A stretch of 64,000 nucleotides of DNA from Allomuricauda sp. F6463D (GTDB taxonomy: Bacteria > Bacteroidota > Bacteroidia > Flavobacteriales > Flavobacteriaceae), in the NCBI RefSeq assembly GCF_023015965.1, contig NZ_JALKAN010000001.1, positions 1,634,160 to 1,698,159 of the forward strand, written 5' to 3'. Below the pieces are notes generated by a model. The model did no database searches, was not told the origin of the DNA, and saw nothing but the letters and a program-made list of their open reading frames with translations. Position numbers and translations under genes: made by a program. Below are positions 6,072-64,000 of this stretch, one piece after another (position 1 is the stretch's first letter; the number at the start of each line of letters is the position of its first letter).

Positions 6072-6076
6072 GGTTC

Positions 6077-9000
6077 TTATAGTTTGAATTCAACGGAAAG
6101 TGTATAGTTTCTAAAATTTGGATACCCGAAATTGTCGAAGAGGAAACCGTCGTATCCAGCCTCTGGATCATAGCCGGAATATTTGGTGAACGTGAGGAGG
6201 TTTCTTCCCAAAGCCCCTATTTTAACATAATCGAACAGATTTCCCGCTTTGCCCAAATCTTCTTTATTGATCTGGAAATAGATCGCGGCTTCCTTTAGTT
6301 TCACGAATGAGGCATCTTCCACCCAGAAGCCGTTGAGTGCCTGCGCATCATACAAAACTTGATAGTAATCCACTGTTTTCTTGTTTTCGGGCGCGGTGTG
6401 CAATTGATCGATCATGGCATGTCGATTGTCCCTTACCAAATACTGGGCGGTCCCGTTATAAAGATCGCCTCCCTGTTTCCATTGCCAGAGCATATAGAGC
6501 GACCATCCTTTGTATCGTAGGTTGGTGTTGAGTCCCAATCTAAAATCAGGGTTGATATCCCCGATCTTCAATTCTTTTTCGGCACCTGTCTCATCCAGGA
6601 TGACATAAGGCTTCTCCTCGGCGGTGCCAATATCGGCGGTTTTCACGACCAGTCCATCTCGGTTGATGCTATATTCACTGATTTCATCCCCTTCAGGCAA
6701 TTGGGTTTGCATCTGCTCTAAACTCCTGACAATATCTACTCCATACATACTTCCGTACGTTTCTCCTTCACGAATCTTAAAAGCATTTCTTGGGCCGGTC
6801 CTATATTCCGGAATGTCGAGTTTGGTGATTTTTTGACGTGTCCTGTCAAAAACAAGATTGATGTCCCAAGAAAAATCATCTGTGGAAAAGATGGTGGAGT
6901 TGAGGGAAGCTTCAAAAGTGTTGGTCTCCAACTCACCTGCATTCACCCATTGATAGGGAAAACCTCCTGCATGTGATGGTAACGGGGACTGTAAGTACTG
7001 ATCTGTCACCTTGGTATTGGAGTAGGTGGCTTCAAATCTAAACCGGTTCAAAAATGAAGTTTCTATCCCGAGTTCAAGTTCATTGGATCGGGAAGGCTTT
7101 AAATTGGCATTTCCCAAAGTACTTTTGGTAAAGGTACCATCGTTCGCATTGAACGTCTCGTACTGAGCTGAAAAGGCTGGACGTAATCCTGAGGTACCGT
7201 ACGCTGCCCTTAACTTGAATTCCTGTATGCCCGGTAGAGTTATATCCTTTGAAAGCCGGTAAGCCCCCGATACACGATAATAGTTTTGCCATCTTTCATT
7301 GGAACCAAAAAGCGAGGAACCATCCCTTCTATATAGTCCATCAACAATATATCTATCCTTATATACAAAGGACGCTATGGCAAAATAGTTTTCAGCTTTG
7401 ATATCGGTATTGGAATCATCGGCATAAATATTGTCACGCGTAAAATAGTTTAAGGAAGGTAGGTCTGGCAAGGTAAATTCGGAACCCTCCGTGGAAACAT
7501 TCTCGAAGTGGTTTTTCTCGTACAAATAGCTCAATTTGCCATTAAAATCCAGCTCTCCCCATGTTTTTTTAAAGTTGATGGTCGCCCTTACGGTTTGGTT
7601 AAAAATGTTCGAGGTATATTTTGTAAGTCCTCCATCGGAATATTGTGGTTCAATAGGGTTACCATAATCTATACTTGTGGGGTCGTTGGGGTCCATCAGG
7701 TTTGGGGAAAGATCTACGATCGTACCTTTGGGAACATAGTCCGTACTTCTATAATCTTGTGATTCTATGGCGTATGCCCCTTTAAAGCTCAACCAATCGG
7801 AAAATTTCCAATCGATTTCATAAGAACCCAAAAACCTTGTTTTTCTGGATTTGCTCTCTTTTTTCCATAAGTCGTACAAAGGATTTGCAAACTGGGTATT
7901 CCAATGGTTGGGATAGAAGTTATATTTCTGGCCGTCCACATTATTGCTTAGTAAATCCACATCCGGATCGCTCATCAATACTTCAAAAAATGCAGCTGTA
8001 CCTCCACCTAAAAAGTCATTTGAAGTTCGGATAAAGTTGTTGCTGGCGGATAGTTTGATGTTGTCCGATATGGCGTGGTCGATATTTGCCCGGATACTGT
8101 TCCTTTTGTATCCCCCGGTCTCTATTACGATACCCTGGTTTTGGTTGTTTTCATAGGACAGGTATAGATTTGTATTGTTTATTCTATGTCCAATCCCTAT
8201 ATAATTGGTGGAATATTGCCCATCGTTGAACATTTGTTCTTGTAGGTTATTGTCCACCCTGTAGGGCATATCTTGGTAGTGGTCTTCCTTTTCCACGCGG
8301 TTGCCTTGGATACGCGGGTCCCATCCGGAAACATAATCGCTGGGATAGTCCACAAAGTAGTATTTTGTGAAAGTTTCTGAGGAGAGCCAATCCGGGGAAA
8401 GCATATAGTGGTGGGAATTGGATAGATCCAAATAATTGGCCACGCGTTGAAAACCAGTTTCACTCCTTACGGTAATGGAAGTTTTGCCATCCGCAATTTT
8501 CTTGCCCCGTTTGGAAGTAATCACGATGACCCCATTTGCAGCCCTTGATCCGTATAAGGAAGATGCAGCGGCACCTTTTACGACTTCCATGGATTCTATA
8601 TCGTCCACATTGATGTCTGCCAACGAACCTTGAAGAATAATTCCGTCCACCAGAATCATAGGACCATTGTTGCCTGTTAGATTTGTGGATCCCCTTAGTA
8701 CAATGTTTGGGCTGGACCCGGGCGAACCACTGAAAGAGGTAACGCTTACCCCGGCAACTTTGGCCTGTAGGGAGGATGATATGGATGCTTGCGGAACTTT
8801 GCTTATCTCATCGGTATTCAATTTTGCTACACTTACCGACATCTTTTTTCGCTCGGTACCGGTCGCCACGCCCGCTACGATTACTTCATCCAGTACGTTG
8901 AACTGTGGAACCAGATTTACATCAAAATAGGTACGGTCACCCACATTCACGATTTTATCCTCATACCCCATATAGGAGAACTCAAGAACGTCCGAGGATG

Positions 9001-50056: not shown

Positions 50057-50851
50057 GTGAATAAAACAATATTTGAAATTACCAAAATGGATTGTCCTTC
50101 AGAGGAAAATCTTATCCGAATGAAATTGGACGGAATTTCAAGCATTGCGAATTTGGACTTTGATATTCCTAATCGAAAATTGACCGTTTTTCACAGCGGA
50201 GAAATTGACCAAATCGAAAAGTCAGTTATCGAACTGAATTTAGGTGGAAAAAAAATCTCAACGGAACAAACCGACCAAACGGAATTTAAAGAAAACGAAA
50301 ATCAGAAAAAACTACTTTGGTCTGTACTTGCCATAAATTTTGCTTTTTTCATTATTGAAATGACAACAGGAATTATCTCAAAATCTATGGGACTTGTTGC
50401 CGATAGTTTAGATATGCTTGCGGACAGTTTTGTGTACGGGATTAGTTTGTTTGCGGTTGGCGGAACAGTAATAAAGAAAAAACGGATTGCCAAACTTGCT
50501 GGATATTTTCAAATAATACTTGCGATTATTGGATTTGTAGAAGTCTTGAGAAGATTTTTCGGAAACGAGAAACTTCCCGATTTTTCAACAATGATTATAG
50601 TTTCGATTTTTGCACTTATTGCAAACGGAATTTGTCTTTATATTTTGCAAAAGTCAAAGAGCAAAGAAGAAGCACATATGAAAGCGAGTATGATTTTCAC
50701 TTCGAATGACGTGATTATCAATTTGGGAGTAATTATTGCAGGAATTTTAGTGCATTATTTGAGTTCTAATAAACCTGATTTGATTATCGGAACAATTGTT
50801 TTTGCATTGGTAATTCAAGGAGCATTTCGGATTTTGAAATTAAGTAAGTGA
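50057..50851 (+). CDS. Cation diffusion facilitator with N-terminal HMA-like domain (cassette 1)
   Basis: 264 residues from GTG 50057; the first ATG would remove part of the N-terminal HMA-like domain (FEITKMDCPSEENLIRMKLD), so GTG is preferred. The membrane part is a CDF metal exporter: LVADSLDMLADSFVYG with Asp116, Asp119 and Asp123, and the second site FTSNDVIINLGV. It should pump out zinc, cobalt, cadmium or a similar ion. It is the only gene of cassette 1 (50025-50992) and sits next to the metal-resistance cassette 2. AT-rich relative to the genes before 49 kb. Confidence 0.88.
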   Translation: MNKTIFEITKMDCPSEENLIRMKLDGISSIANLDFDIPNRKLTVFHSGEIDQIEKSVIELNLGGKKISTEQTDQTEFKENENQKKLLWSVLAINFAFFIIEMTTGIISKSMGLVADSLDMLADSFVYGISLFAVGGTVIKKKRIAKLAGYFQIILAIIGFVEVLRRFFGNEKLPDFSTMIIVSIFALIANGICLYILQKSKSKEEAHMKASMIFTSNDVIINLGVIIAGILVHYLSSNKPDLIIGTIVFALVIQGAFRILKLSK

Positions 50852-50867
50852 ACTAAAAAAGCACTAC

Positions 50868-50998
50868 TTACAACAACGTGTATAATTAATGGCTGGTTCT
50901 CGCCTACTTACGAAAATCCTCGTGGATTTTCTATTCGGTTTTTATTTGCTAAATTAGGTGCTTAAACACGCCACTAATCATACACAAATCCGTTACCC
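50868..50998 (+). repeat. attC site 1 (end of cassette 1)
   Basis: R'' box TTACAAC 50868-50874, R' box GTTACCC 50992-50998. Arms GTGTATAATTAATGGC (50878-50893) and GCCACTAATCATACAC (50970-50985) pair at 14 of 16 bases. Inside is a second hairpin, GAAAATCC/GGATTTTC. Inferred cut between G50992 and T50993. Confidence 0.85.
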
Positions 50999-51020
50999 AC
51001 AAGCTGTAAACCCACCGCAT

Positions 51021-51086
51021 ATTTTAGCACTTTCGGTTTTTTCCGACACACAAATCCAACGCTGTAAAAACCAAAAGAGCTAAAAT
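51021..51086 (+). repeat. Covarying double-stem element 1 (start of cassette 2)
   Basis: Outer stem ATTTTAGC/GCTAAAAT (51021-51028, 51079-51086) and inner stem GGTTTTT/AAAAACC (51035-51041, 51066-51072), with an AC-TTT junction on the left and AAA-AGA on the right and a C/A-rich loop. Same architecture as the elements at 52.4, 53.8, 58.4, 58.8 and 61.3 kb but different stem sequences. Confidence 0.7.
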
Positions 51087-51110
51087 TTTCCCAACGCTTG
51101 AAAATTATGT

Positions 51111-51150
51111 ATTTAAGTATTTGCTTAAATAAGAAATAAACGTAACTTTG
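51111..51150 (+). promoter_or_regulatory. Promoter and ArsR-type operator of the metal-resistance cassette
   Basis: TTG at 51120-51123 (within TATTTGC) and TAACTTTG at 51143-51150 fit the Bacteroidota -33/-7 promoter with 19 bp between. The -33 part lies in an inverted repeat ATTTAAG-TATTTG-CTTAAAT (51111-51130, perfect arms), a good ArsR/SmtB operator. The -7 box ends four bases before the arsR ATG, so the message would have almost no leader. Confidence 0.7.
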
Positions 51151-51154
51151 TTAT

Positions 51155-51529
51155 ATGGAAAATAATTATTGCATAAGACAACAAGCTGATATTGAACAAA
51201 TAAATCGTTGCAAAGAAACCGTTTCGGAATTAGACGAATCGTTCGACTATTTGGCAAATGGACTTTCATTGGTCGGAAATAGCGTTCGATTGAAAATACT
51301 TTACCTACTCTTTATAGAAAAAAGACTTTGTGTTTGTGATTTAAGCGATATTCTTGGAATGAACATATCCGCTATTTCTCAACATTTAAGGAAAATGAAA
51401 GACCGAAATCTATTAGAAACAGAAAGAGATGCTCAAACAATTTTTTACTCACTTACGGCTGAATACGAAAAATTACTAAATCCGTTTTTTGAGATACTTG
51501 ATAAAAACAAAATTTTAGAAACGATATGA
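51155..51529 (+). CDS. ArsR/SmtB-family metal-responsive repressor
   Basis: 124 residues. Winged HTH (LCVCDLSDILGMNISAISQH) with the metal-binding pair Cys59 and Cys61 at the head of the recognition region as in CadC/ArsR proteins, plus Cys6 and Cys19 near the N-terminus as further ligands. Expected to bind the inverted repeat overlapping its own promoter and to release on metal, inducing merTP. First gene of cassette 2; its stop overlaps the next start by four bases. Confidence 0.9.
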   Translation: MENNYCIRQQADIEQINRCKETVSELDESFDYLANGLSLVGNSVRLKILYLLFIEKRLCVCDLSDILGMNISAISQHLRKMKDRNLLETERDAQTIFYSLTAEYEKLLNPFFEILDKNKILETI

Positions 51530-52125
51530 AAAGTGAAAATAAATTAATTGGTGCAGGTTTGTTAACTGCAATTACAGCTTCCTTGTGTTGTATTACACCA
51601 GTTTTGGCTCTAATCGCAGGAACAAGCGGAATTGCTTCTGCATTTTCTTGGATTGAACCTTTTAGACCTTATTTAATCGGACTGACAATTTTAGTTCTTG
51701 GTTTTGCTTGGTATCAAAAACTAAAACCTCAAAAAGAAATTGACTGCGAATGCGAGACGGACGAAAAACCAAAATTTATTCAATCAAAAAAGTTTTTAGG
51801 AATCGTAACTGTATTTGCAATTGTAATGTTGGTTTTTCCATACTATTCAGGAATATTTTACCCAAATACAGAAAAGCAAATAATCGTAGTTGACAAATCG
51901 GACATTAAAACGACTGAATTTAAAATAAGCGGAATGACTTGTGCGAGTTGCGAAGAACACGTAAATCACGAAGTAAATAAGCTCAACGGAATTGTGAACT
52001 CAAAAGCGTCTTACGAAAATGGAAATGCAATCGTTGAATTTGACAAAACCAAAACCAACGAAACAGAAATCGAGAATGCAATTAACTCAACAGGTTATAA
52101 AGTAACCGACAAAAAAGAAAACTAA
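51526..52125 (+). CDS. merTP: Fused mercuric transport protein MerTP
   Basis: 199 residues. The MerT-like part has membrane helices with the SLCCITPVLALIAG motif (Cys21-Cys22) and a cytoplasmic CEC pair (74, 76); the C-terminal MerP/HMA domain has GMTCASCEEHV (Cys139, Cys142). It brings mercuric ion into the cell, normally for reduction by MerA. No merA is present in this cassette, so either it is encoded elsewhere or another thiol metal is handled. Confidence 0.9.
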   Translation: MKSENKLIGAGLLTAITASLCCITPVLALIAGTSGIASAFSWIEPFRPYLIGLTILVLGFAWYQKLKPQKEIDCECETDEKPKFIQSKKFLGIVTVFAIVMLVFPYYSGIFYPNTEKQIIVVDKSDIKTTEFKISGMTCASCEEHVNHEVNKLNGIVNSKASYENGNAIVEFDKTKTNETEIENAINSTGYKVTDKKEN

Positions 52126-52331
52126 TGGAAGTCCAATTAAAATCAGAAATCACTTGTCCTAATTGCGGACATAAAAAAGTAGAAGATATGCCAACAAACG
52201 CTTGTCAATTTTTCTACGAATGCGAGAATTGTAAAACGGTTTTGAAACCAAAAGAAGGAGATTGCTGTGTTTATTGCTCATACGGAACAGTTGCTTGTCC
52301 ACCAATTCAAGAAAATAAAAGTTGTTGTTAA
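52125..52331 (+). CDS. GDCCVxC-domain cysteine-rich protein
   Basis: 68 residues with eleven cysteines, including two CPxC-type pairs (CPNC 11-14, CENC 33-36) and the motif GDCCVYCSYGTVACPPIQ that names this family, often found beside mer genes. It probably binds or passes on metal in the cytoplasm. Start codon overlaps the merTP stop by one base; last gene of cassette 2. Confidence 0.88.
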   Translation: MEVQLKSEITCPNCGHKKVEDMPTNACQFFYECENCKTVLKPKEGDCCVYCSYGTVACPPIQENKSCC

Positions 52332-52349
52332 AAAGCCAACGCTAAAAGC

Positions 52350-52408
52350 CATACACATTTGCAATTCGCACCAACCAACACACAAGCCAAAAATTGCAAA
52401 AGAGTATG
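52350..52408 (+). repeat. Covarying double-stem element 2 (end of cassette 2)
   Basis: Outer stem CATAC/GTATG (52350-52354, 52404-52408), inner stem TTTGCAATT/AATTGCAAA (52358-52366, 52392-52400), perfect pairing, ACA and AGA junctions, 25-base loop of A and C with few G/T. Followed by TGTCTTATCCAACGCT, shared with element 6. Confidence 0.72.
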
Positions 52409-52452
52409 TCTTATCCAACGCTGAAAACCAAGCTGAACGGAATAAAGCCAGT

Positions 52453-52582
52453 GGGTAACAACGTATATAAAAAATAGCGGTTAAGTGCTAAATCAAAATG
52501 AATTACATAAATTTAAGGTCAGAGTTTACCTGAAAAGTTTGTACTTAAAATCCGCTACTTTTCATATACAAGACCGTTAGGG
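52453..52582 (+). repeat. attC site 2 (end of cassette 2)
   Basis: R'' GGGTAAC 52453-52459, R' GTTAGGG 52576-52582. Arms GTATATAAAAAATAGCGG (52463-52480) and CCGCTACTTTTCATATAC (52552-52569) pair at 16 of 18. R'' with its left neighbours (GTGGGTAA) is the reverse complement of TTACCCAC at the cassette start (50993). Confidence 0.88.
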
Positions 52583-52600
52583 CAAATACGAAAAAAGCAT

Positions 52601-53542
52601 ATGGCAAAGAAAAATTACGGAAAATCATTAGCTCTTCAACATTTCTACAAATCTATTGAAGCGGAAATCCGAAATTATTGGCAAATAAACACCTCATTGA
52701 TTTATTCCGAAAGATGGTGGAATGGAATACCAGAAGCCGATTTGCCTGCAAGAATTACTTTGTTTCCTGGAGATAATAAAACACCTTTTTCAAGTATTGA
52801 CTTACCGCCAAAAACGTATTTAGCAAATCATAATAATGTATTACAGCTTACACGCGAAAATTCAATAGTAAATTTCATTACAGTTTTCGAAGTGTATCTC
52901 TATAACATTGTCAAAAGAATGATGTACTTAAAACCATCTTTAGTTGGAGAATCTGAAATGCCGTTTGAGGCGAAGGATATAGCTGAAGAAATGGAAAATA
53001 ATAGCGTAAGAGAATGGTTTGCGGAAAAAGTTACCCAAAAGTATATTAGAAATAAATCGCATTTAAAAATGTTCAAGCGATTAGAACAAATATTGAAATA
53101 TCAAATAAATGACCCCAAGGACGGACTTGTAGAAGATTGGAACAATTGGACATATGTAAGAAACGCAATAATTCACAATGGAAGAGAAACTTCAGAGGAT
53201 TTAGTTAGAGTTTGGAATTCTAGGTATTCTGCGGTTGGCACACCACTTAATCTAGAAGATGCTGATGTCATTAAAGTTCCTTATATCGCAATGGAACTAG
53301 CTAAAAAAATTGACAAAATAATATTAGAGAAAGCAATCCAAAATGAGGATGCTGGATTGCTAGTTAGAGAATTATTTGTGAGAAATGGAACTGACGAGCC
53401 TCAAGAATTAGCTAAATCAGTTTGGAATATATTAAATAGTCGATTAGGGAAACCATTAGTACAAAAGTATTTGGCATATCAAAAAAGAACAGGAGCTAAA
53501 ATAAAAGGTTGGAGATTTACACACTACAACTTTATGGAATAA
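52601..53542 (+). CDS. HEPN-like protein of unknown function (cassette 3)
   Basis: 313 residues, helical, no signal peptide. The motif VRNAIIHNGRE places Arg187 and His192 as R-x4-H, the catalytic signature of HEPN ribonucleases, after a helix-rich region (NFITVFEVYLYNIVKRMMYL). HEPN proteins often act in phage defence or toxin systems, sometimes with a partner; this one is alone in its cassette. No specific family recognised, so defence is an inference. The stop is 8 bp before the attC. Confidence 0.6.
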   Translation: MAKKNYGKSLALQHFYKSIEAEIRNYWQINTSLIYSERWWNGIPEADLPARITLFPGDNKTPFSSIDLPPKTYLANHNNVLQLTRENSIVNFITVFEVYLYNIVKRMMYLKPSLVGESEMPFEAKDIAEEMENNSVREWFAEKVTQKYIRNKSHLKMFKRLEQILKYQINDPKDGLVEDWNNWTYVRNAIIHNGRETSEDLVRVWNSRYSAVGTPLNLEDADVIKVPYIAMELAKKIDKIILEKAIQNEDAGLLVRELFVRNGTDEPQELAKSVWNILNSRLGKPLVQKYLAYQKRTGAKIKGWRFTHYNFME

Positions 53543-53549
53543 GTACTTG

Positions 53550-53743
53550 CCCTAACAACGTGTATAAAAAATAGCTAATAAGTGCTTAACCAAAGGGCTT
53601 GTATTTATTTGCAAAAACCGCCAAATTTTTAATTTGGCTTTAAAAGTGAAATATTAAAACAAAATATAAAAATTCGGCTCTGTGTTAATCCGAAAAGCTG
53701 GTGTCTTTTTGCCCGCTACGTTTCATACACAAGTCCGTTGTAT
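53550..53743 (+). repeat. attC site 3 (end of cassette 3)
   Basis: R'' CCCTAAC 53550-53556, R' GTTGTAT 53737-53743. Arms GTGTATAAAAAATAGC (53560-53575) and GCTACGTTTCATACAC (53715-53730) pair at 13 of 16. TTGCCCTAA is the reverse complement of TTAGGGCAA at the cassette start (52577). At 194 bp the longest site in the array. Confidence 0.85.
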
Positions 53744-53771
53744 GCCATTGAAAAAAGAAAAGCCAACGCAC

Positions 53772-53832
53772 AAATAGCACATTTGGTTTTGCCAACGCAC
53801 AGGCAATCGCAAAAAAACCAAAAGAGCTATTT
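53772..53832 (+). repeat. Covarying double-stem element 3 (start of cassette 4)
   Basis: Outer stem AAATAGC/GCTATTT (53772-53778, 53826-53832), inner stem TTTGGTTTT/AAAACCAAA (53782-53790, 53814-53822), perfect pairing, ACA and AGA junctions. Lies 30 bp before the Argonaute gene. Confidence 0.72.
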
Positions 53833-53861
53833 TTTCGCCAACGCTTTGTAATAGAAACTGA

Positions 53862-56800
53862 ATGATAAAAATTGACAAAAACACATTTCTAAGAAGTTAT
53901 AAAGTACTTTCAAATCAGTCGTTTGATTTATTTCTTGGAGCAGGTGCGTCAATTTCTTCGGGAATTCCATCAGGTAGCGATTTAGTTTGGCTTTTTAAGA
54001 GAGAACTCCTGAGTACTAGTGGGGAAATTAACGGAAAGAAACTTCTAGATCTTAAAGTTGATGCGAATAAGAAGGTTATTCAAAGCTTTTTCGTTGAAGA
54101 AGATACTCAAACCCTAAACCCTTACTCCCACTATTTTGAAAAGTGTTATCCAGACCCATTAGTAAGAAAAGAGTTCCTTACTAATCTCGTAAGAGACAAA
54201 AAGCCTTCAATTGGGTTTATGTGTCTTTCTGTGCTAGTTGAGAAACAAAAGCTTAATACTGTTTGGACAACTAACTTTGATGACCTAATAGAACGAGCAA
54301 TAAGTAAACTTGACATAACCTGCCAAGTTGTATCACCTGAAAATGCTAATTCTGTTGAGAATTTCAGAAAAGATATTCCAACTGTAGTAAAACTTCATGG
54401 AGATTTCCGCTACGATCCTTTGCAAAACACTGATGAGGAATTGCAACAGCTTGAAGAGAACCTTCATCATTACTTTATAGAGTCTACTAATAAACGAGGG
54501 TTATTAGTCGTGGGTTATTCAGGTAGTGACGAATCTGTCTTAAAGACACTTGAAAAATCATTAGAGGAATCGAATCCCTTTCCAAAAGGCCTGATTTGGT
54601 GTATTCCTAAAGACATAGCTCCAAATGAACGATTAATCAAGATTATAGAAAAAGCCAATAACCAAAACGGACGTTCAGGGTTTATGGTTATAGATAGCTT
54701 CGATTATTTCATTCATGAATTGTACAAAGTTTGTGAATTAAAAAATGAACAGATTGATTCAATTGCTGATGATCGATTTGAACAGAGAAAGTTCTTTCGA
54801 TTGAATCAAAATCAATCTAATACTACGCCTATTCTCTTAAATGCTGTAAAAACAAAGTCTTTTCCAAAAGCAATATTTTCGACAAAAACAACTATCAATG
54901 GTGAAGGGAAATGGAAAAAACTACGTGAAGTATTAGATGGTTCAAGTGTAGTTGCCGCTTTTAGTAAAGGAGAAACTCTTTCACTTTTCGGAAATGAGAA
55001 TGAAATTAAGGAACTCTTCAAGGACTATTTTACTGACGAACTAAGATTGGTTGATATTCCTGAATATCTCTTCCATCAGCCAGATTCATTCTATATTGGT
55101 CTTCTGTATGGATTGATTGAAAAATCATTGATTTCTGATTATGGATTGGCTTTGCACACTAAAGGCAGGCATATCCGAAAGTTTTATTCCACAAGTCATC
55201 CATTAAGTCAAGAAGAAATCAACAGCATTCCTAAATGGCTCAATTTCCGAATACCAAAAGGAATTCAAGTTTTTGAAGCATTTGAGTTTAAAGTAGAATT
55301 TGTCAATAAGGAATTGTTCCTCCTTATTTGCCCAACCATTCATATACAAAATACTACAGGCGAAGAGCCTGATAGGAAAACTGTTCAGGATATCACCAAT
55401 ACAATTGTTTCAAACCGTTGGAATGGAAAATATGGAAAGAAGTTAAGCTTTTGGTTTAAAGAGTTAAAGAACAGGAAATCAGATCTCACTTTTCGACTTG
55501 GTGATTTTGAAATAAAACTTTCGGGGTATTACTCTACAGCAGCAAAAAAAATGGATAGCTTCTTTTGTTTTGATAGTTACTCGAAAGCAAAGGAACCTCT
55601 AATTTACTTTCATCATCAAGACGAAACAAAGCAATCCATACACCCAATAAATGGATTAAAAATTTTGGGACCCCTTGAAGAAAGTTTCGGAGCAAATGGC
55701 AGTACACCTAAGATTCAAATAGCAATAATCTCTCCTGATAAAGGTTTTGAAAGAGTTAAAACACATTTAGAGTCATTATTGAGCCCCGTAACACCAACAA
55801 CAGAAAAGGAGTACTTAAAAGAATACCTAGGCTTTGATGAAGTTTATAAAAAACATTTAGTAATTCCCAATTCTATTCAAAGCGAATATGTGGTTGTAAT
55901 TAACAGTACAGAAGTAAGTCAATATTCCGCAATTCAATTCTATGAATTAATAAAGAACAAAGTTGACAAGCTGTCTTTAAAAAATACAGAGATAGATTGT
56001 GTAGCGGTTTACATACCAGACTATTGGACGAATTTCAGAGAACTTAAGAATGAACAAACCTACTTCGACCTTCATGATTCACTCAAACTTTATGCAATAA
56101 AGAAAGGTTTACGATTGCAGTTCATCGAAGACAAATCAATCAATTATAAGGATCAAGCAAAAGTTAAATGGTGGCTTTCACTTGGCATATATGTAAAATC
56201 TAATGGTACTCCATGGAAAGTCAAAACTGATAATACTGAAACTGCCTTCGTTGGGTTAGGATATGCGGTTCGACAAAACGCAAGTAAAAAAGTAGTCTTA
56301 GGGAGTAGTCAGATTTTTGACGGTAATGGAAACGGTTTAAGGTTTCTACTTCAGCCAATTGAGAAGCCTATTTTTTACAATAAAAACCCATTCATGAGTA
56401 AGGATGATGCATTTCGTTTGATAACCAACATTCGAAATACCTATCATAAAATAGACCCTGTAATTGGACTCAAAAAATTGGTATTACATAAGACCACTCA
56501 TTTTACAAGAGACGAAATGGATGGGATTTGCAATGCCTTAGAAGGCATTGATAACATTGAACTTCTTCAAATTCAACAATTCAGTAATTGGAGAGCATTA
56601 AAGCTCAGAAAGAATCATTCAACAGGCAAACATGAGTATGATGGTTTCCCAATTGATAGAGGAACAATTATACAACTAGATGAATTCAGCTTTTTATTAT
56701 GGACACATGGCATTGTAGAAAGCCCTGAATTAAACGGGAAATATTACCAAGGAAAAAGAGGTATCCCTTCCCCTTTATTGATAAAACGATTTAGAGGAAC

Positions 56801-56978
56801 AGACCCAATTGAAACCGTGGCGAATGACATTTTGAAGTTGACCAAAATGAATTGGAATGGAGCTGAACTATACAAAACAATGCCAGTATCTATCGACTTT
56901 TCAAAACGACTTTCGGTAATGGGGAAGCAATTAGAAGAACTTGGTAATAGAGCTTATGACTTTAGATACTTTATATAG
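53862..56978 (+). CDS. Single-chain SIR2-APAZ-Argonaute defence protein (SPARSA-like, cassette 4)
   Basis: 1038 residues. The N-terminal SIR2 domain has the NAD-binding LFLGAGASISSGIPSG, TTNFDDLIERA (Asn138), VVKLHGDFRYD (His179) and GYSGSDESV, all residues needed for NAD hydrolysis. The middle (about 290-560) is the expected place of an APAZ region. The C-terminal MID domain (TYFDLHDSLKLYAIKKGLRL, KVKWWLSLGIYVKSNGTPW) and PIWI domain (KLVLHKTTHFTRDEMDGI, NDILKLTKMNWNGAELY, ending NRAYDFRYFI) are clear. The first PIWI catalytic position reads FVGLGYAV, with no Asp, so slicing is unlikely. Short-Argonaute systems of this type sense invading nucleic acid by guide and then deplete NAD. Usually SIR2-APAZ and Argonaute are two proteins; here they are one. 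Confidence 0.88.
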   Translation: MIKIDKNTFLRSYKVLSNQSFDLFLGAGASISSGIPSGSDLVWLFKRELLSTSGEINGKKLLDLKVDANKKVIQSFFVEEDTQTLNPYSHYFEKCYPDPLVRKEFLTNLVRDKKPSIGFMCLSVLVEKQKLNTVWTTNFDDLIERAISKLDITCQVVSPENANSVENFRKDIPTVVKLHGDFRYDPLQNTDEELQQLEENLHHYFIESTNKRGLLVVGYSGSDESVLKTLEKSLEESNPFPKGLIWCIPKDIAPNERLIKIIEKANNQNGRSGFMVIDSFDYFIHELYKVCELKNEQIDSIADDRFEQRKFFRLNQNQSNTTPILLNAVKTKSFPKAIFSTKTTINGEGKWKKLREVLDGSSVVAAFSKGETLSLFGNENEIKELFKDYFTDELRLVDIPEYLFHQPDSFYIGLLYGLIEKSLISDYGLALHTKGRHIRKFYSTSHPLSQEEINSIPKWLNFRIPKGIQVFEAFEFKVEFVNKELFLLICPTIHIQNTTGEEPDRKTVQDITNTIVSNRWNGKYGKKLSFWFKELKNRKSDLTFRLGDFEIKLSGYYSTAAKKMDSFFCFDSYSKAKEPLIYFHHQDETKQSIHPINGLKILGPLEESFGANGSTPKIQIAIISPDKGFERVKTHLESLLSPVTPTTEKEYLKEYLGFDEVYKKHLVIPNSIQSEYVVVINSTEVSQYSAIQFYELIKNKVDKLSLKNTEIDCVAVYIPDYWTNFRELKNEQTYFDLHDSLKLYAIKKGLRLQFIEDKSINYKDQAKVKWWLSLGIYVKSNGTPWKVKTDNTETAFVGLGYAVRQNASKKVVLGSSQIFDGNGNGLRFLLQPIEKPIFYNKNPFMSKDDAFRLITNIRNTYHKIDPVIGLKKLVLHKTTHFTRDEMDGICNALEGIDNIELLQIQQFSNWRALKLRKNHSTGKHEYDGFPIDRGTIIQLDEFSFLLWTHGIVESPELNGKYYQGKRGIPSPLLIKRFRGTDPIETVANDILKLTKMNWNGAELYKTMPVSIDFSKRLSVMGKQLEELGNRAYDFRYFI

Positions 56979-57028
56979 CCAAAATAAAAGATGATTCTGA
57001 AACAAAGGCAGCCTAATTTTTATCCTAT

Positions 57029-58324
57029 ATGATATTAAGTAAACTAAAAATGGAAATTGAACCTCTGCTTAAAAATGCAGATGAATCATGGTTTGCTGTT
57101 GCCCTAATAAAAGACAAGACCTTTGAATACATTCAAAACACAATAAATGAGAGCTGTATTCAGCATTACATAGTTGGTATTGACCTTCCAACTCCTCCAT
57201 CTGTTCTACACTCTATGCAAGCCAAACAAGAGAAAAAATCATTTGAGTGTGCTATTTATAAATCAGATTTCAATTTTCACCCGAAAGTATATTTAATAAA
57301 ATCAAATGATGAATACGTTGCATTTGTTGGCTCAGCTAATTTAACAGACGGTGGTTTTGAAAATAATGTTGAATTAAATTATAAGATATCTAATCAAGCA
57401 GACTGTCTTCATATTTTGAATTGGTTTAATTCACTATTTAAGGATGGGTACCCTTTAACAGACGAAAATATTGACGAGTATGAAAGTCAATTGGAGTCAA
57501 TCAAAGAAACTGAGAAAGAACTTAAAAGGAAACGTAAATCAATTGTTCTTAAAAAGACACACTCGACAGTTAATCCGCTTGACGCTATTGATTTTTCTGA
57601 CAGGTTTTTTAAGAAGGAACATCATTGGGCATTTAGACGAGAACTTTGGTATTCTGACAGTGAAGAAGCAGTTGACGAAAGAGAGTTGGCTAGATCAAAA
57701 TGTATAGAGTTACATGAAATTGTTTTTCCTCGATTTAAGGATTATGGAATCCAAATTTTAGAACCTAATCCAATGTCTGATCACCTAATATCAATGATAA
57801 GACTAATAGACCCTTCGAAACCAAGAGCAATCAATGCTATGTGGTTGAGTTATGGAAAAAATGTAAATGAAATTAAAGAGTATCAAAAATTAGTTGGCCC
57901 AGATCAAAAAGCCAAACAGACATTTATTCATCATGCAAGATTGCAAATTAGAATTGATGTCAGAAACATTGGGATTTGGCTACTATTTGCAAAAGAAAAT
58001 GAAGGTGGATTATTCGACAGAGAGTTTTTTAAAGGACAGATGAGAGACAGAACTTTCAGAGACAAATTCTACCAAATGATTAAATCACTGCCTAATGAAT
58101 ATTTTATTTCAGTAGGTGGAGTAAATGAGTTTTGCAACAAGTTTACTTCACCAGAAGTACTTCATAATTTCACTAAAAAGGACAATAATCAAATGTATTT
58201 TATCATAGGAAGAGATTATGAAATCCAGAATGATGAAATGTCCGAGACCAACATGCCAAGTGAAATGCTAACAGTATTTAAACTTCTATTTCCATTTTAT
58301 GAAATGATGAGACACAGAATATGA
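57029..58324 (+). CDS. PLD-family nuclease-like protein (partner gene in cassette 4)
   Basis: 431 residues. One phospholipase D-type site: HPKVYLIKSNDEYVAFVGSA, with His84-x-Lys86 and GSAN at 101-104 followed by Glu115. A single HxK motif suggests a dimeric nuclease as in BfiI or Nuc. The C-terminal 300 residues are not recognised. It starts 50 bp after the Argonaute gene inside the same cassette, so the two probably form one defence system, with this as a second effector or regulator. That link is inference from the shared cassette. Confidence 0.75.
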   Translation: MILSKLKMEIEPLLKNADESWFAVALIKDKTFEYIQNTINESCIQHYIVGIDLPTPPSVLHSMQAKQEKKSFECAIYKSDFNFHPKVYLIKSNDEYVAFVGSANLTDGGFENNVELNYKISNQADCLHILNWFNSLFKDGYPLTDENIDEYESQLESIKETEKELKRKRKSIVLKKTHSTVNPLDAIDFSDRFFKKEHHWAFRRELWYSDSEEAVDERELARSKCIELHEIVFPRFKDYGIQILEPNPMSDHLISMIRLIDPSKPRAINAMWLSYGKNVNEIKEYQKLVGPDQKAKQTFIHHARLQIRIDVRNIGIWLLFAKENEGGLFDREFFKGQMRDRTFRDKFYQMIKSLPNEYFISVGGVNEFCNKFTSPEVLHNFTKKDNNQMYFIIGRDYEIQNDEMSETNMPSEMLTVFKLLFPFYEMMRHRI

Positions 58325-58340
58325 ATAGCCAGCCCAATTT

Positions 58341-58404
58341 TCAAGCACATTTCCAAAGCCGCACAAGCCAATGCTCAATCCAAAGCTTTGCAAAAGAGCT
58401 TGCA
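58341..58404 (+). repeat. Covarying double-stem element 4 (end of cassette 4)
   Basis: Outer stem CAAGC/GCTTG (58342-58346, 58398-58402), inner stem TTTCCAAAGC/GCTTTGCAAA (58350-58359, 58385-58394; 9 of 10), ACA and AGA junctions. Lies 17 bp after the nuclease stop. Confidence 0.7.
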
Positions 58405-58448
58405 AAGCAAACGATTAAGAAGAACGTAATAAATAAAATAAAAACGGC

Positions 58449-58515
58449 ATACAACAAGGTGTATAGTGCATAGCACCCTGCGGGATGCTACGACACCATA
58501 CACAGAACGTTGGGA
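58449..58515 (+). repeat. attC site 4 (end of cassette 4)
   Basis: R'' ATACAAC 58449-58455, R' GTTGGGA 58509-58515. A short site (67 bp) with arms GTGTATAGTGCATAGCA (58459-58475) and TGCTACGACACCATACAC (58486-58503). GGCATACAA before it is the reverse complement of TTGTATGCC at the start of cassette 4 (53738), nearly 4.8 kb away. Confidence 0.87.
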
Positions 58516-58720
58516 CGGAATTTGAAAGCCTCCGGCCTCAACCAAGTAGCTACATTGCTCCGCAATTCCCGCCCCTTGGGCATCCGTCCCAACGCCCTGC
58601 TAAACCAAATTGCCAATGCAGTCGGGACTGTAAGTCCTCGGCTCCACGATTGAAAACACCAAAAACCCGACCCAACATTACCTAAAAGCAATTTGATAAC
58701 GTTCTGGGTTTAGCAGGGCG
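58510..58720 (+). other. Cassette 5, 211 bp, no gene
   Basis: Bounded by TTGGGACGGA at its start and the exact reverse complement TCCGTCCCAA at 58583-58592. Only about 77 bp lie outside its attC, too short for a gene. Overlapping short frames on both strands are dictated by the palindrome. It could supply a promoter or be a degraded cassette. GC-rich compared with its neighbours. Confidence 0.75.
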
Positions 58721-58726
58721 TTGTAC
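58587..58726 (+). repeat. attC site 5 (end of cassette 5), different sequence family
   Basis: R'' TCCCAAC 58587-58593, R' GTTGTAC 58720-58726. Arms GCCCTGCTAAACC (58594-58606) and GGTTTAGCAGGGC (58707-58719) pair perfectly over 13 bp. It lacks the GTGTATAA...AATAGC arm shared by the other sites, so it probably came from another array. Confidence 0.82.
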
Positions 58727-58746
58727 ATAATGCAATCCCACCGCTA

Positions 58747-58807
58747 AAACAGCACATTTATTTTTCCCAAACCCACCATCCCAAGCTGAAAAATAAAAGA
58801 GCTGTTT
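58747..58807 (+). repeat. Covarying double-stem element 5 (start of cassette 6)
   Basis: Outer stem AAACAGC/GCTGTTT (58747-58753, 58801-58807), inner stem TTTATTTTTC/GAAAAATAAA (58757-58766, 58788-58797), perfect pairing, ACA and AGA junctions, 21-base C/A-rich loop. Confidence 0.72.
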
Positions 58808-58905
58808 CTGCCTTTGCGCTCGAAAAACCGTTAACAAGATTGTGAACAAACACGACTGAATATGTTGTGAATTGCTTTCAGAATTTTGTTTCTTTACGCA
58901 TTAGT

Positions 58906-60147
58906 ATGGCCAAGAAATATTCGAAAATAAAAAAAGAGTTACAAATCAAAGTTGACAAAATAGTTGACAACGATTTGGCGTACTTAACGCACTATTTTCA
59001 GAATCACAAAAATGGTGTTTCACAATATTTTAAGCCAACTGCAACTGAATACCTTACAGAACTTCACGAGGAAAATAACATCCTGAAAGAACCTGATTTT
59101 CAATATTATTTACCTATCGAATGGGATATTCCTTTTCCGCCACCGAAAAATCCGACTTTCAAATTTATCGACTTGTTTGCTGGAATTGGAGGAATACGAC
59201 TTGCATATCAGAATAATGGCGGAAAATGTGTTTTCTCAAGTGAATGGGACAAGTTTTCAAAACAAACTTACGAGGCGAATTTTGGCGAAGTCCCCTTTGG
59301 AGACATAACTAAAATTTCAGAAAAAGAAATTCCAGACCACGATATTTTATTGGGTGGTTTTCCTTGCCAACCATTTTCAATTGCTGGCGTTTCAAAGAAA
59401 AAATCGCTTGGAAGACAACACGGTTTTTTGGATAAAACCCAAGGAACATTATTTTTTGACATTGCTCGAATAATAAAACACAAAAAGCCAAAGGCTTTTA
59501 TGCTCGAAAACGTCAAAAATCTTGTTTCTCACGATAAGAAAAAAACATTCAAAATAATTACCGAAACTCTGACCGAATTAGGATATTCCTTGCATTACAA
59601 AGTTTTGGACGGCAAATATTATGTTCCACAACACCGTGAACGAATAATCATTGTTGGTTTCAAAAAATCGGTTTTCAAAGGCAAAGAAACCTTTGAATTT
59701 CCACAGCCCGAAGTTGCAAATTTTGCCATTCGAGAAATTCTTCAACGAAAAGTGGACGATAAATACACGCTTTCAGACAAATTGTGGAATTATCTTCAAG
59801 AATACAAGAAAAAGCACCAAGCAAAAGGTAACGGATTTGGATTTGGATTAACTGACCTCAATGGAATATCGAGGACAATGAGTGCACGGTATTATAAAGA
59901 CGGAGCAGAAATATTAATTCCGCAAAGAGGTAAGAATCCAAGAAGATTGACACCAAGAGAATGTGCAAGGCTTCAAGGGTTTCCAGATAATTTTATAATT
60001 CCTGTTTCAAACAACCAAGCATACAAACAATTTGGCAACTCTGTTGTAATGCCTTTGATACAAGCAGTCGGCAACAACATTGTAAAAGAACTTTCAAAAT
60101 TAAATGAGCATATTAGAGAAAGCAATTCAATCAGCACAGCAGTCTGA
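58906..60147 (+). CDS. C5-cytosine DNA methyltransferase (Dcm/M.EcoRII-like, cassette 6)
   Basis: 413 residues from ATG 58906; a GTG further upstream is possible but less likely. All main motifs are present: FIDLFAGIGG (87-96), GGFPCQPF with catalytic Cys154, ENVKNL (201-206), QHRERIIIVGF, RRLTPRECARLQGFP and FGNSVVMPLIQAV. The roughly 85-residue N-terminal extension resembles that of Dcm and M.EcoRII. With the next gene it forms a type II system, probably for CCWGG. It protects the host from the endonuclease. Confidence 0.93.
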   Translation: MAKKYSKIKKELQIKVDKIVDNDLAYLTHYFQNHKNGVSQYFKPTATEYLTELHEENNILKEPDFQYYLPIEWDIPFPPPKNPTFKFIDLFAGIGGIRLAYQNNGGKCVFSSEWDKFSKQTYEANFGEVPFGDITKISEKEIPDHDILLGGFPCQPFSIAGVSKKKSLGRQHGFLDKTQGTLFFDIARIIKHKKPKAFMLENVKNLVSHDKKKTFKIITETLTELGYSLHYKVLDGKYYVPQHRERIIIVGFKKSVFKGKETFEFPQPEVANFAIREILQRKVDDKYTLSDKLWNYLQEYKKKHQAKGNGFGFGLTDLNGISRTMSARYYKDGAEILIPQRGKNPRRLTPRECARLQGFPDNFIIPVSNNQAYKQFGNSVVMPLIQAVGNNIVKELSKLNEHIRESNSISTAV

Positions 60148-61273
60148 AATAGCATTTAGCAAATTCATTAAGCCTAACGATACAGGTTCAACTGGAGGAC
60201 ATCAAGCTGGTTTTCACTTGCACAAAAGCTCTTGGCCATTATTTTTTGAAACAGAGGGAGAAAAAGGCTCGAACAAAGACCATTTTGCCACGATTAAATG
60301 GCAAGATGATTTTGAAACGACAAGCAGATTTATTTATTACGGAAAAGGCACAAGGAATGAGTATCGCTTAACTCGGTTTGGAAGAGGTTTTCCGTACTTA
60401 ACAGACGATAATGTTGGTGATTTGCTTGTAATTTCCAAAAGGTCGAACGACTACTTTGAGGCATTTGTTTTAAGCACAGATGAAGATATAGAGGACTTTT
60501 TTACTGCTCTAAACATTTCATCTACTGAAACCAATGGAATAATACCTAAGCAATTAGAGCAAACAGCTGAAGAACAATTAATTGGTTGCTTTTTACAATA
60601 TATAAATGCTTTGGCCGTCGATTTTCCACCAACTTTAGAAATAGCAACAAATGCGAGAAATTGTTACATCAATTCCTTTGGTGTAACGCCAAGTCAAATT
60701 AAGGCGAATCCAGATAAACAGATTTTAAAGTGGCTTGAAACGGAATACGACCTGTTCAAAACATTGGAAAATGACAGGTATGCTGAGTTGATTAAAAATC
60801 CTTTTCCCTCTGTTGAAGAATTGGTTATTTCTGCCAACACAATCCTTAATCGCAGAAAAAGTCGTGCAGGAAAATCTCTCGAACACCACTTAGAAGAGAT
60901 ATTTAGGATATCGGAACTTAATTTTCAAACTCAAGTAACCACAGAAAACAATAAAAAACCTGACTTCCTATTTCCAAATATTGAGGCTTACCACAATCCG
61001 AGCTTTAATGAAAATAAATTGATTTTGTTGGCATCAAAAACGACTTGTAAAGACAGGTGGCGACAAATTTTAAATGAAGCTGACAGAATAGAAACAAAAC
61101 ACTTGTTCACTCTTCAACAAGGAATATCGAAAAACCAACTTGCTGAAATGAAACAATACAATGTGCAATTGGTAGTACCCAAAGCATATTTATCAAGTTT
61201 CCCACCAGAACATCGAGCTGATATTATGATATTGGAACAATTTGTTAATCGAGTAAATGAAACGCAGAATTAA
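60104..61273 (+). CDS. EcoRII-like restriction endonuclease
   Basis: 389 residues. N-terminal effector-binding B3-like domain (GSTGGHQAGFHLHKSSWPLF), linker, and C-terminal PD-(D/E)xK nuclease: RRKSRAGKSLEHHLEEIF (250-267), KKPDFLFPNIEAY (Asp287) and LASKTTCKDRWRQILNEADR (Lys312, Lys316), closely matching the EcoRII catalytic region. EcoRII needs two copies of its site (CCWGG) for cutting. Its start lies 44 bp inside the methyltransferase gene in another frame, which couples the two products. Confidence 0.9.
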   Translation: MSILEKAIQSAQQSEIAFSKFIKPNDTGSTGGHQAGFHLHKSSWPLFFETEGEKGSNKDHFATIKWQDDFETTSRFIYYGKGTRNEYRLTRFGRGFPYLTDDNVGDLLVISKRSNDYFEAFVLSTDEDIEDFFTALNISSTETNGIIPKQLEQTAEEQLIGCFLQYINALAVDFPPTLEIATNARNCYINSFGVTPSQIKANPDKQILKWLETEYDLFKTLENDRYAELIKNPFPSVEELVISANTILNRRKSRAGKSLEHHLEEIFRISELNFQTQVTTENNKKPDFLFPNIEAYHNPSFNENKLILLASKTTCKDRWRQILNEADRIETKHLFTLQQGISKNQLAEMKQYNVQLVVPKAYLSSFPPEHRADIMILEQFVNRVNETQN

Positions 61274-61287
61274 CCAATGCTACGAGC

Positions 61288-61343
61288 CACACACATTTAC
61301 AGTCGCAACATCCAGCGCACAACCCAAACTGTAAAAGAGTATG
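61288..61343 (+). repeat. Covarying double-stem element 6 (end of cassette 6)
   Basis: Outer stem CACAC/GTATG (61288-61292, 61339-61343; one mismatch), inner stem TTTACAGT/ACTGTAAA (61296-61303, 61328-61335), ACA and AGA junctions. The flank TGTCTCTGCCAACGCT matches that of element 2. Confidence 0.72.
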
Positions 61344-61381
61344 TCTCTGCCAACGCTACAAACTGAGCGCAAAAGCACTAT

Positions 61382-61512
61382 GTACAACAACGTATAAGCG
61401 CAATAGCGGGAAAAGTGATAAAACCAAAGAAATAGTATAAATTTAAGGTCGTTGTTAAGCCAAAAAGTTAGTGCGTAAAAACCGCTACTGCGCTTATACA
61501 AGACCGTTGGCA
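61382..61512 (+). repeat. attC site 6 (end of cassette 6)
   Basis: R'' GTACAAC 61382-61388, R' GTTGGCA 61506-61512. Arms GTATAAGCGCAATAGCGG (61392-61409) and CCGCTACTGCGCTTATAC (61482-61499) pair at 17 of 18. TATGTACAA is the reverse complement of TTGTACATA at the cassette start (58721). Confidence 0.88.
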
Positions 61513-61551
61513 ACAAGCTAAAAAACCGAACTGAAATCAAACATTTAGGGA

Positions 61552-61929
61552 ATGACAAAAATTATCTCAAGTCCGAATTGTGGAAATTCACCGAAAATGG
61601 AATTTCTAAAAGATTTTAATATTGCTTTTGCAAAAGGAAACATTGAATTTATTGTCGATAGCGTAACAGATGATATTGTTTGGAATATAATTGGCGACAA
61701 AAAAATCGAAGGGAAAGAAAAGTTAACTGTGGAATTGGAAAAAATGAAACCCGAAAAAGTAAGCGAATTAGTTCTTAAGCAAATATTGTCTCATGGAAAG
61801 GAAGGAGCGGCAAGCGGAATCATGAAAATGCAAGACGGGAAAAAATATGCGTTCTCGGACTTCTACAGATTTAAAGGGGCAAGAGGTGTGAAAATAAAAT
61901 CAATAACATCATTCGTAATCGGAATTTAG
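61552..61929 (+). CDS. SnoaL-like / NTF2-fold protein (cassette 7)
   Basis: 125 residues with the NTF2/SnoaL-like pattern: an N-terminal helix pair (EFLKDFNIAFAKGNIEFIVD), SVTDDIVWNIIGDKKIEGKE and a beta sheet ending IKSITSFVIGI. The fold serves small-molecule enzymes and binding proteins of many kinds; no substrate can be named. It shares cassette 7 with the next gene. Confidence 0.78.
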   Translation: MTKIISSPNCGNSPKMEFLKDFNIAFAKGNIEFIVDSVTDDIVWNIIGDKKIEGKEKLTVELEKMKPEKVSELVLKQILSHGKEGAASGIMKMQDGKKYAFSDFYRFKGARGVKIKSITSFVIGI

Positions 61930-63148: not shown

Positions 63149-63175
63149 CAGGCAACAATGTATCCTATGAAAAGC
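63149..63175 (+). repeat. Left half of attC site 8, truncated
   Basis: R'' AGGCAAC 63149-63155 with TACAGGCAA as the exact reverse complement of TTGCCTGTA at the cassette start (62515). The left arm continues GTATCCTATGAAAAGCC, but no matching right arm or R' box can be found before the IS110 gene, so the array is broken here. Confidence 0.7.
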
Positions 63176-63443: not shown

Positions 63444-64000
63444 TTATTCCACTACCCCTATCTCATAGGGAACGCCCGTCTTTATAACTGCCAATGTCCG
63501 GCTCAAAAGCTTTCGGGCCACTTTGACGATCACCGATTTCACGTTCTTGCCCCGGTGCCTGCGATAGTACCCCTGCATCACCGGGTCCGTCCTGATCGCC
63601 TGCCAGGAGGCCTCGATGAAATAGCTCCTTATCAATCGGTGCGCCCGCATGCTCACCCCCGTGTGCCGCATGGCATCCCCACTTTGGTAGATGCCCGGGG
63701 CCAGCCCCACATAGCCCGCCAACTGCTTGATGTTGTTGAACCTGCGGAGGTCCCCAAGCTCGCTCAAGATGCCACTGGCCACGATGGGGCCTATCCCCGG
63801 TATGCTGCGCAACAACATGTAACCCTTTTTAAAGTGTGCCTTGGTATGGCGTCTCAACAGGGTGGACACGTCCCTGAACTCTTGGTCGACGAACCGAAAT
63901 GTGCGCATACGACTGTGCAATACTTCTTTGCCCGCATCGTATTCAAACTCCAGGCCGTCCAACCAGTCCCTGAAACCGTGGCTCCAATGGTCATTGTCGA
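63444..64000 (-). mobile_element. IS110-family transposase, C-terminal part (runs off the window)
   Basis: The frame is open to the window edge (…DNDHWSHGFRDWLDGLEFEYD). The C-terminal Transposase_20 domain is clear: LLRSIPGIGPIVASGILSEL, FNNIKQLAGYVGLAPGIYQS, then RHTGVSMRAHRLIRSYFIEA and KSVIVKVARKLLSRTLAVIK, with the serine of the IS110 active site expected in this region. The N-terminal RuvC-like DEDD domain lies beyond the window. Much more GC-rich than the cassette array beside it, so a recent arrival from another background. Likely cause of the lost array end. Confidence 0.9.

Follow-up and report, generated by a model that had tools for sequence, protein, structure and literature searches.

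In Vibrio, anti-phage genes are carried in chromosomal integron cassettes, and IS200/IS605 elements carry a hairpin at each end, the two being similar and oriented alike. How a gene comes to be joined to an attC site is, to our knowledge, unsettled. A passage of PMC8352920 mentions a native mechanism of "cassette genesis" and leaves it undescribed there, a passage of PMC2727003 gives bottom-strand use as a known property of attC sites, and a passage of PMC8618304 lists Bacteroidota among the phyla with integrons. Here, we analyze 64,000 nucleotides (nt) of Allomuricauda sp. F6463D (contig NZ_JALKAN010000001.1, positions 1,634,160 to 1,698,159; hereafter the window). The window holds an array of eight attC cassettes, and in three of these the cargo genes stand between two imperfect hairpins, one upstream (L) and one downstream (R). 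Because the cargo changes just inside the hairpins, and because the same cargo can be found within other ends, we tentatively read the hairpin pair as the inner border of a reusable attC shell, without being confident that this is right.

Like integron cassettes, the hairpin cassettes have complementary GTT/AAC core ends and a folded attC-like site at the 3' end, they move as whole units, and they fold on the bottom strand. They differ in having two extra hairpins inside the cassette that frame the cargo, in carrying multi-gene operons that often have a promoter motif of their own, and in that the recombinase of the array scores below the cutoffs for integron integrases. The L and R hairpins themselves resemble attC sites, as they are imperfect hairpins with structure kept over sequence, conserved unpaired bases, and a better fold on the bottom strand. 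But they have no inverted GTT/AAC core pair at their feet, they have symmetric A-A/C-G/A-A interruptions, and we know of no strand exchange at them. As in IS200/IS605, similar hairpins in one orientation stand at both ends; in contrast to IS200/IS605, no transposase was seen by eye in the cargo and the borders of mobility lie at attC. The likeness to the Vibrio cassettes is in the anti-phage cargo of a chromosomal integron, and the difference is that the Bacteroidota cassettes carry whole operons, framed by hairpins. We found no description of such hairpins in the open-licence PMC literature (titles and starts of abstracts), which is not proof of absence.

Six hairpins had been proposed in a preliminary description of the window that was made from the sequence alone, and both a reading of the sequence and a covariance model (58 positions) place them at the same coordinates. 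Each one runs outer stem, ACA, TTT and inner stem, C/A-rich loop, inner stem and AAA, AGA, outer stem. On the plus strand, the L hairpins are at 51021..51086 (cassette 2, model core 51024-51083, 41.6 bits), 53772..53832 (cassette 4, core 53774-53830, 47.4 bits), and 58747..58807 (cassette 6, core 58749-58805, 45 bits). The R hairpins, on the same strand, are at 52350..52408 (cassette 2, core 52350-52408, 44.4 bits), 58341..58405 (cassette 4, core 58342-58402, 40.3 bits), and 61288..61345 (cassette 6, core 61288-61343, 40.3 bits). Numbering the copies by position, copy 1 has the variant CACTTTC: it was missed by the core pattern CACATTTN{20,50}AAAAGAG and recovered by the covariance model and by folding. 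The core pattern matched the window 5 times (mean of 0.05 and maximum of 1 in 100 shuffles). When single copies were folded as top-strand DNA, the expected full hairpin was the lowest-energy form for four of the six, and copies 4 and 6 took a different form. Small defects can also be read from the sequence: copy 1 has a C-A mismatch in its inner stem, copy 4 has a C-C mismatch, and copy 6 has a C-A mismatch in its outer stem. Copies 2 and 6 do have a common outer stem and flank, and exactly two copies do bracket the genes of cassettes 2, 4, and 6, as the preliminary description had it. It had also named cassettes 1, 3, 7, and 8 as lacking the hairpin; the model gave no further match in the window at E of 1, which agrees and adds cassette 5. 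At the gathering score, Rfam did not match the window, and a permissive Rfam scan of 50800-61600 gave a single sub-threshold match (mir-310, E of 0.11) away from the hairpins. The same genome has two more clear copies at the start of the same contig, 4.8 kilobases (kb) apart and in the same orientation, which flank a type III restriction-modification operon.

The claim that structure is retained while sequence changes holds across 104 aligned copies. Standard pairs fill 97.8% of the 1456 paired cells, although this alignment was fitted to its own covariance model, so these counts lean towards structure. Relative to the commonest pair, 328 cells are changed on both sides (94.9 in shuffles) and only 5 on one side, and the covariation score is 0.614, as compared to 0.142 for shuffled alignments and at most 0.140 when the alignment is slid. 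The number of pairs with a double change and the number of pair types are not outstanding (reached by 99 and 79 of 500 shuffles). The core-pattern shuffles and the covariation statistics lead us to reject a chance origin of the hairpins. The outer stems are CAAGC/GCTTG, CATAC/GTATG, and similar, and 73 of 82 distinct stems have ACA/AGA as their internal loop.

Hairpin pairs around cargo, which the preliminary description had noted for the window, are also seen in other genera and phyla. We kept one strand per place and dropped L087 (29.3 bits; numbers of this form are our locus names), the match at 4716 in L098 (28.6 bits), and weaker ones, which left 162 hairpins. Consecutive matches are mostly an L type and then an R type in one orientation. 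Six consecutive same-strand matches were dropped, either as R-to-L neighbors (L114, L167, L169, and window positions 52350 and 58342) or as ambiguous (L078), and this gave 44 pairs, including L145, which has a hairpin with an L-type stem downstream, and L083, L103, and L105, which are weak or fit loosely. The inner stem of L is usually TTTGGTTTT (a stem selected by the search pattern), and R has TTTGCAATT, TTGCCAAG, and others. At L129:7833-7891, one R hairpin resembles a chimera of two R subtypes, with CACAC as its left arm and GCTTGCAAAG as its right arm.

The cargo of the 44 pairs has a median length of 4.1 kb (range 1.3-8.1 kb), and 98.3% of its open reading frame (ORF) length is on the strand of the hairpin orientation. 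R follows the last stop codon within 32 nt in 39 pairs, and in 38 pairs no more than 130 nt separate L from the first possible start codon (the start used throughout this survey). Among the 42 pairs with at most 400 nt from L to the start codon, 17 have TAnnTTTG in between, which we take to be the −7 promoter motif of Bacteroidota (1.06 in shuffles, which preserve single bases only). A GCCRACRC-like motif is found near L at most 30 nt before it (24 of 44), in the loop (30), and at most 20 nt after it (24); the corresponding counts for R are 18, 20, and 22, and shuffles gave at most 3.3. For 24 of the 80 L-pattern loci listed, the model found an R partner, and searching by eye, with complementary ends or a relaxed hairpin search, gave 5 more among the 27 partnerless loci that have at least 4.5 kb downstream. 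We saw neither an absence of covariation nor singly scattered matches, either of which would have told against the element; the partner search covered the places where the flanking DNA sufficed.

The element recurs across Bacteroidota and neighboring phyla. The L-type pattern matched at least 117 stretches of public genomes, and the 80 loci listed include members of Flavobacteriales, Cytophagales, Sphingobacteriales, Bacteroidales, Chitinophagales, Saprospiraceae, Balneolaceae, Ignavibacteriales, and Calditrichota, with a few metagenome-assembled genomes labelled Clostridia, Caldisericales, or Oceanicaulis. The covariance model found copies in at least 16 of 395 genomes of the class (E ≤ 0.01) and in at least 6 of 395 genomes of the phylum (E ≤ 0.001). 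These are lower bounds, as the searches score 17 candidates per genome and missed the window's own genome; a model search of that genome alone gave seven matches, four of them in the array, and still missed four good copies. A loose pattern matched 37 of 39 relatives at rates that were near the reversed control in most genomes, and from its matches six places in five relative genomes were chosen by eye. For L105-L184, the L hits come from a search pattern whose inner stem is fixed, and this reduces variation and increases identity on the L side; the R partners were not selected in this way. In viral stretches, raw matches numbered 2 for the exact R pattern and at least 120 for the loose pattern. 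The 58-position model is a ready marker for hairpin cassettes.

The pairs mostly lie inside cassettes of the attC type, a point that the preliminary description had proposed to check. Of the 44 pairs, 40 have 120 nt of flank on both sides, and 29 of these have complementary GTT../..AAC ends of at least 9 nt, as compared to 77 of 1554 mismatched pairs (5%). (Three of these, L071, L072, and L083, scored best on an inner repeat rich in A/T and not on the core, but core ends with a shorter score are visible in L071 and L083.) The spacing is narrow in 14 of the 29, with GTT 28-38 nt before L and the AAC end 42-53 nt after R. A home-made finder, which recovers 6 of the 7 array sites seen by eye, placed an attC-like site at most 200 nt after R in 19 of 30 cases (1 of 132 control windows inside cargo) and at most 200 nt before L in 12 of 36; it gave none in L377, which holds an R hairpin. 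In L071, L072, L075, L101, and L083, further complementary stretches of 15-20 nt are nested between the attC core and the hairpins on both sides, and these differ in sequence from cassette to cassette.

The clearest view of the border comes from comparing shells. L076 and L159 are near-identical over a stretch that starts at the attC core, takes in L, and stops about 12 nt past it; their cargo is unrelated, and agreement resumes just before R and runs to the attC core. The same mosaic is found in L045 (the window's own genome), L148 (Maribacter ulvicola), and L184 (an uncultured Polaribacter), where the agreement extends through the attC site. More systematically, 42 units with enough flank give 861 pairs, of which 840 have no nucleotide homology in their cargo, and 34 of these 840 resemble each other in both outer flanks (selection at 0.70 and 0.75). 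Across the 34 pairs, the R hairpin has an identity of 0.81, and the 60 nt that begin 15 nt inside have identities of 0.62 (L) and 0.61 (R), with a background of 0.60. Many exchanged shells are about 70-80% identical over short ends. Cargo can also be the same in a different shell: L107 and L150 have cargo that is 90% identical over 1.2 kb, starting before the gene, without a common shell, and L138/L172 (80%) and L071/L104 (73%) are further cases. Thus, of the proposal that the hairpins are ends of a nested unit exchanged within cassettes, the exchange stands, but a free nested transposon is disfavored, as the hairpins stay with the attC-side sequence while the cargo between them changes. Constant attC-bearing ends, changing cargo, and a sharp structured border are visible in public genomes and can be tested with reporters.

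Whole cassettes move as well. One of them, which by eye is for mercury resistance, occurs with 97-99% identity across the aligned stretches in four genomes (Allomuricauda sediminis, Flavobacterium sp. UBA6721, Chryseobacterium sp. SC28, for the first 2.4 kb, and our genome G022), and L082 and L180 are 92% identical from core to core with different neighbors. Where near-identical copies occur in different genomes, they are bounded by the cassette borders rather than by the hairpins. In L151 (Allomuricauda sediminis, with the same sequence as G011, a genome of the window's genus; contig C10 there), a 767-nt direct repeat (556-1322 and 5740-6506, 99.2% identical) flanks the mercury cassette.

The next question is in what form the hairpins act. 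Structural RNAs normally tolerate G-U pairs, so the near lack of them here points to DNA: only 6 of the 1456 cells are G-T and 14 are A-C (11 and 29 in a looser set). When R, attC, and L are joined as in an excised circle, the bottom strand folds into three hairpins with energies of −53.6, −53.1, and −53.6 kcal/mol for cassettes 2, 4, and 6, as compared to −44.0, −43.4, and −46.9 kcal/mol for the top strand. Of 81 distinct hairpins, 64 fold better on the bottom strand by more than 0.5 kcal/mol and 8 on the top strand, and attC alone has the lower energy on the bottom strand in 17 of 21 cases. The excess of A-C over G-T also hints weakly at the bottom strand, without being significant, and the strand evidence taken alone is weak. 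The near absence of G-U and the joint bottom-strand folding moderately favor folded single-stranded DNA over RNA, and in this respect the earlier suggestion of a structured single-strand DNA or RNA signal can be narrowed.

A recombinase stands beside several attC-like arrays. At 5 of the 12 loci examined (L045, L367, L369, L373, and L374), a tyrosine recombinase is followed by at least two attC-like sites in the same direction, and in L103 a recombinase is less than 2 kb from the hairpin pair and points away from it. Relatives are found in all 16 of 16 hairpin genomes at E ≤ 1e-20, a count that includes general Xer relatives. The recombinase of L045 (8712-9851, contig C11 of the window's own genome) is XerA/IntI-like and upstream of an attC-like array. 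It falls short of a canonical IntI, with 218 of the 220 bits needed for NF040815 and 200.7 of 265 for TIGR02249, and in an alignment of this one protein it is about 43 residues shorter than 2a3v between two matched stretches. We take 2a3v to be IntI4 and the 43 or so residues to be the IntI-specific insertion.

The cassette order would then be the GTT core start, a short linker, the L hairpin, the cargo operon, the R hairpin, a short linker, and attC. We propose that L and R may work as single-stranded DNA folded on the bottom strand, which is the strand of attC recombination, and that the excised circle would bring the R hairpin, attC, and the L hairpin together as three neighboring hairpins. 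Operons in the slot might be joined or swapped by a protein that acts on the hairpins or on the GCCAACGC-like motif flanking them, after which the reloaded shell would move like any other attC cassette. For the attC step, and for that step only, the XerA/IntI-like recombinase of several attC-like arrays is a candidate. That the hairpins are cargo-loading sites in this sense, i.e., folded single-stranded DNA where new operons, chiefly anti-phage ones, enter an attC shell, is possible but in our judgement unlikely. If true, then Bacteroidota integrons make new cassettes, which for this phylum would directly settle how genes come by their attC sites.

Several observations weigh against this proposal and against the reusable shell. 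Narrow L-to-R patterns for empty shells matched only 2 of 395 class genomes, and by eye neither was a shell (one stretch of the viral_contigs set was also a raw match). No protein could be tied to the hairpins: in ten further regions around relatives of the array recombinase (L367-L376), a hairpin is clear only in L376 and weak in L368. Five of the eight window cassettes have no hairpins, and the core spacing is wider in the other 15 of the 29 pairs with complementary ends. The median bottom-strand gain is 0.7 kcal/mol and may largely be a constant effect of T-T versus A-A mismatches, and the excess of A-C over G-T has a p of 0.12. Finally, homologous recombination between shells could yield the mosaic without any hairpin enzyme.

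A second explanation, and the main rival, is that the hairpins are transcriptional insulators that mark the borders of expression units: L would stop upstream read-through before the cargo promoter, and R would end the cargo transcript. This fits the short distance from the last stop codon to R, the gene orientation of both hairpins along with nearly all of the ORF length, and the promoter motif between L and the start codon. However, the hairpins have neither the G+C-rich stem nor the T run of an intrinsic terminator: their stems are mostly A-T, and T makes up 28% of the 20 nt after L and 18% of the 40 nt after R, with no T-run. Also, G-U pairs are nearly absent and are fewer than A-C mismatches, unlike in selected RNA; window copies 4 and 6 fold as hairpins on the bottom strand and not on the gene-sense strand; and the spacing to attC is left unexplained. 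We consider insulation improbable, if still worth taking seriously. An RNA leader was rejected as the promoter motif, where visible (17 of 42 pairs), is downstream of L, and pairing between the L and R loops, which was considered only, was set aside as both loops are C/A-rich.

Third, homologous recombination between conserved shells could swap the cargo, with the hairpins serving some other purpose, such as forming part of an extended folded attC region that is recognized in the excised circle of single-stranded DNA. Some shells, such as those of L076 and L159, are conserved enough to recombine, and both the complementary stretches nested around attC in several cassettes and the three-hairpin fold of the joined ends would suit such a region. 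But many exchanged shells have merely the 70-80% identity over short ends described above, and in the pairs that we inspected, homology has its borders just inside the hairpins and not anywhere in the shell. This seems rather unlikely to us.

Finally, the hairpins could be transposon-like ends, perhaps folded as in IS200/IS605 and mobilized in trans, as two similar hairpins in the same orientation do flank diverse cargo, but this is very improbable given where the near-identical copies end, given the cassette ends that lie outside the hairpins in 29 of 40 pairs, and given that no transposase was seen by eye in the ORF lists of the counted pairs (a transposase in trans was not searched for; IS-like fragments are found only in one weak pair outside the counted ones, L098 4716-9396).

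Returning to the reusable shell, defense-type genes prevail in the cargos that we examined. We scanned the large proteins of 27 units, which are not a random sample and include L042, where only the R hairpin is seen. By our reading of the hits, 20 of the 27 carry restriction-modification, Argonaute, GmrSD, TOTE, HerA, or similar systems (window cassettes 4 and 6, L045, L099, L043, L042, L125, L184, L132, L138, L147, L143, L156, L155, L116, L111, L162, L133, L129, and L145). Window cassette 2 (mercury transport), L106 (peptidase M23), and L159 (HSP70) are not of this type, and in L152, L115, L182, and L180 the tested protein had no match; a stretch of 411 nt in the L182 cargo has 67% identity to window cassette 6. 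The shell may be one route by which Bacteroidota trade defenses.

In the window, all of the features of the hairpin cassettes are on the plus strand, and the complementary GTT/AAC ends give borders of 50993-52576 for cassette 2, 53738-58509 for cassette 4, and 58721-61506 for cassette 6. The upstream border of cassette 2 is the attC-like site of cassette 1 (50872..50994; finder and repeat family D3/D5). Its L hairpin is followed at 51120..51150 by a promoter motif, TTTG-N19-TAACTTTG, found by reading the sequence and by the −7 motif count and presumably of the Bacteroidota type. The cargo (51155..52331, NCBIfam) comprises an ArsR-family regulator (51155-51529), a MerTP fusion (51526-52125), and a small protein of 68 amino acids without a match in Pfam (52125-52331), and the attC-like site is at 52457..52578 (finder, with GTTACCCAC/GTGGGTAAC ends). 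Cassette 4 carries, by PADLOC and Pfam, a SIR2-Argonaute protein (53862-56978) and a PLD-like protein (57029-58324), which together make up its cargo (53862..58324), and has its attC-like site at 58453..58511 (finder, GTTGTATGCC/GGCATACAAC ends). The cargo of cassette 6 (58867..61273; NCBIfam, PADLOC, and Pfam) is a C5-cytosine methyltransferase (58867-60147) and an EcoRII-type restriction enzyme (60104-61273), with an attC-like site at 61386..61508 (finder, GTTGTACATAATGC/GCACTATGTACAAC ends).

Between two of these hairpin cassettes, cassette 5 (58510-58720) is an attC-like unit of about 0.2 kb with no gene of 90 or more amino acids. Directly after cassette 8, on the minus strand at 63444-63962, there is by eye an IS110-family-like transposase gene, and the last attC, that of cassette 8, which is beside it, seems to be cut short. 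The end of cassette 8 (CAGGCAAC, near 63150) complements its start, GTTGCCTG.

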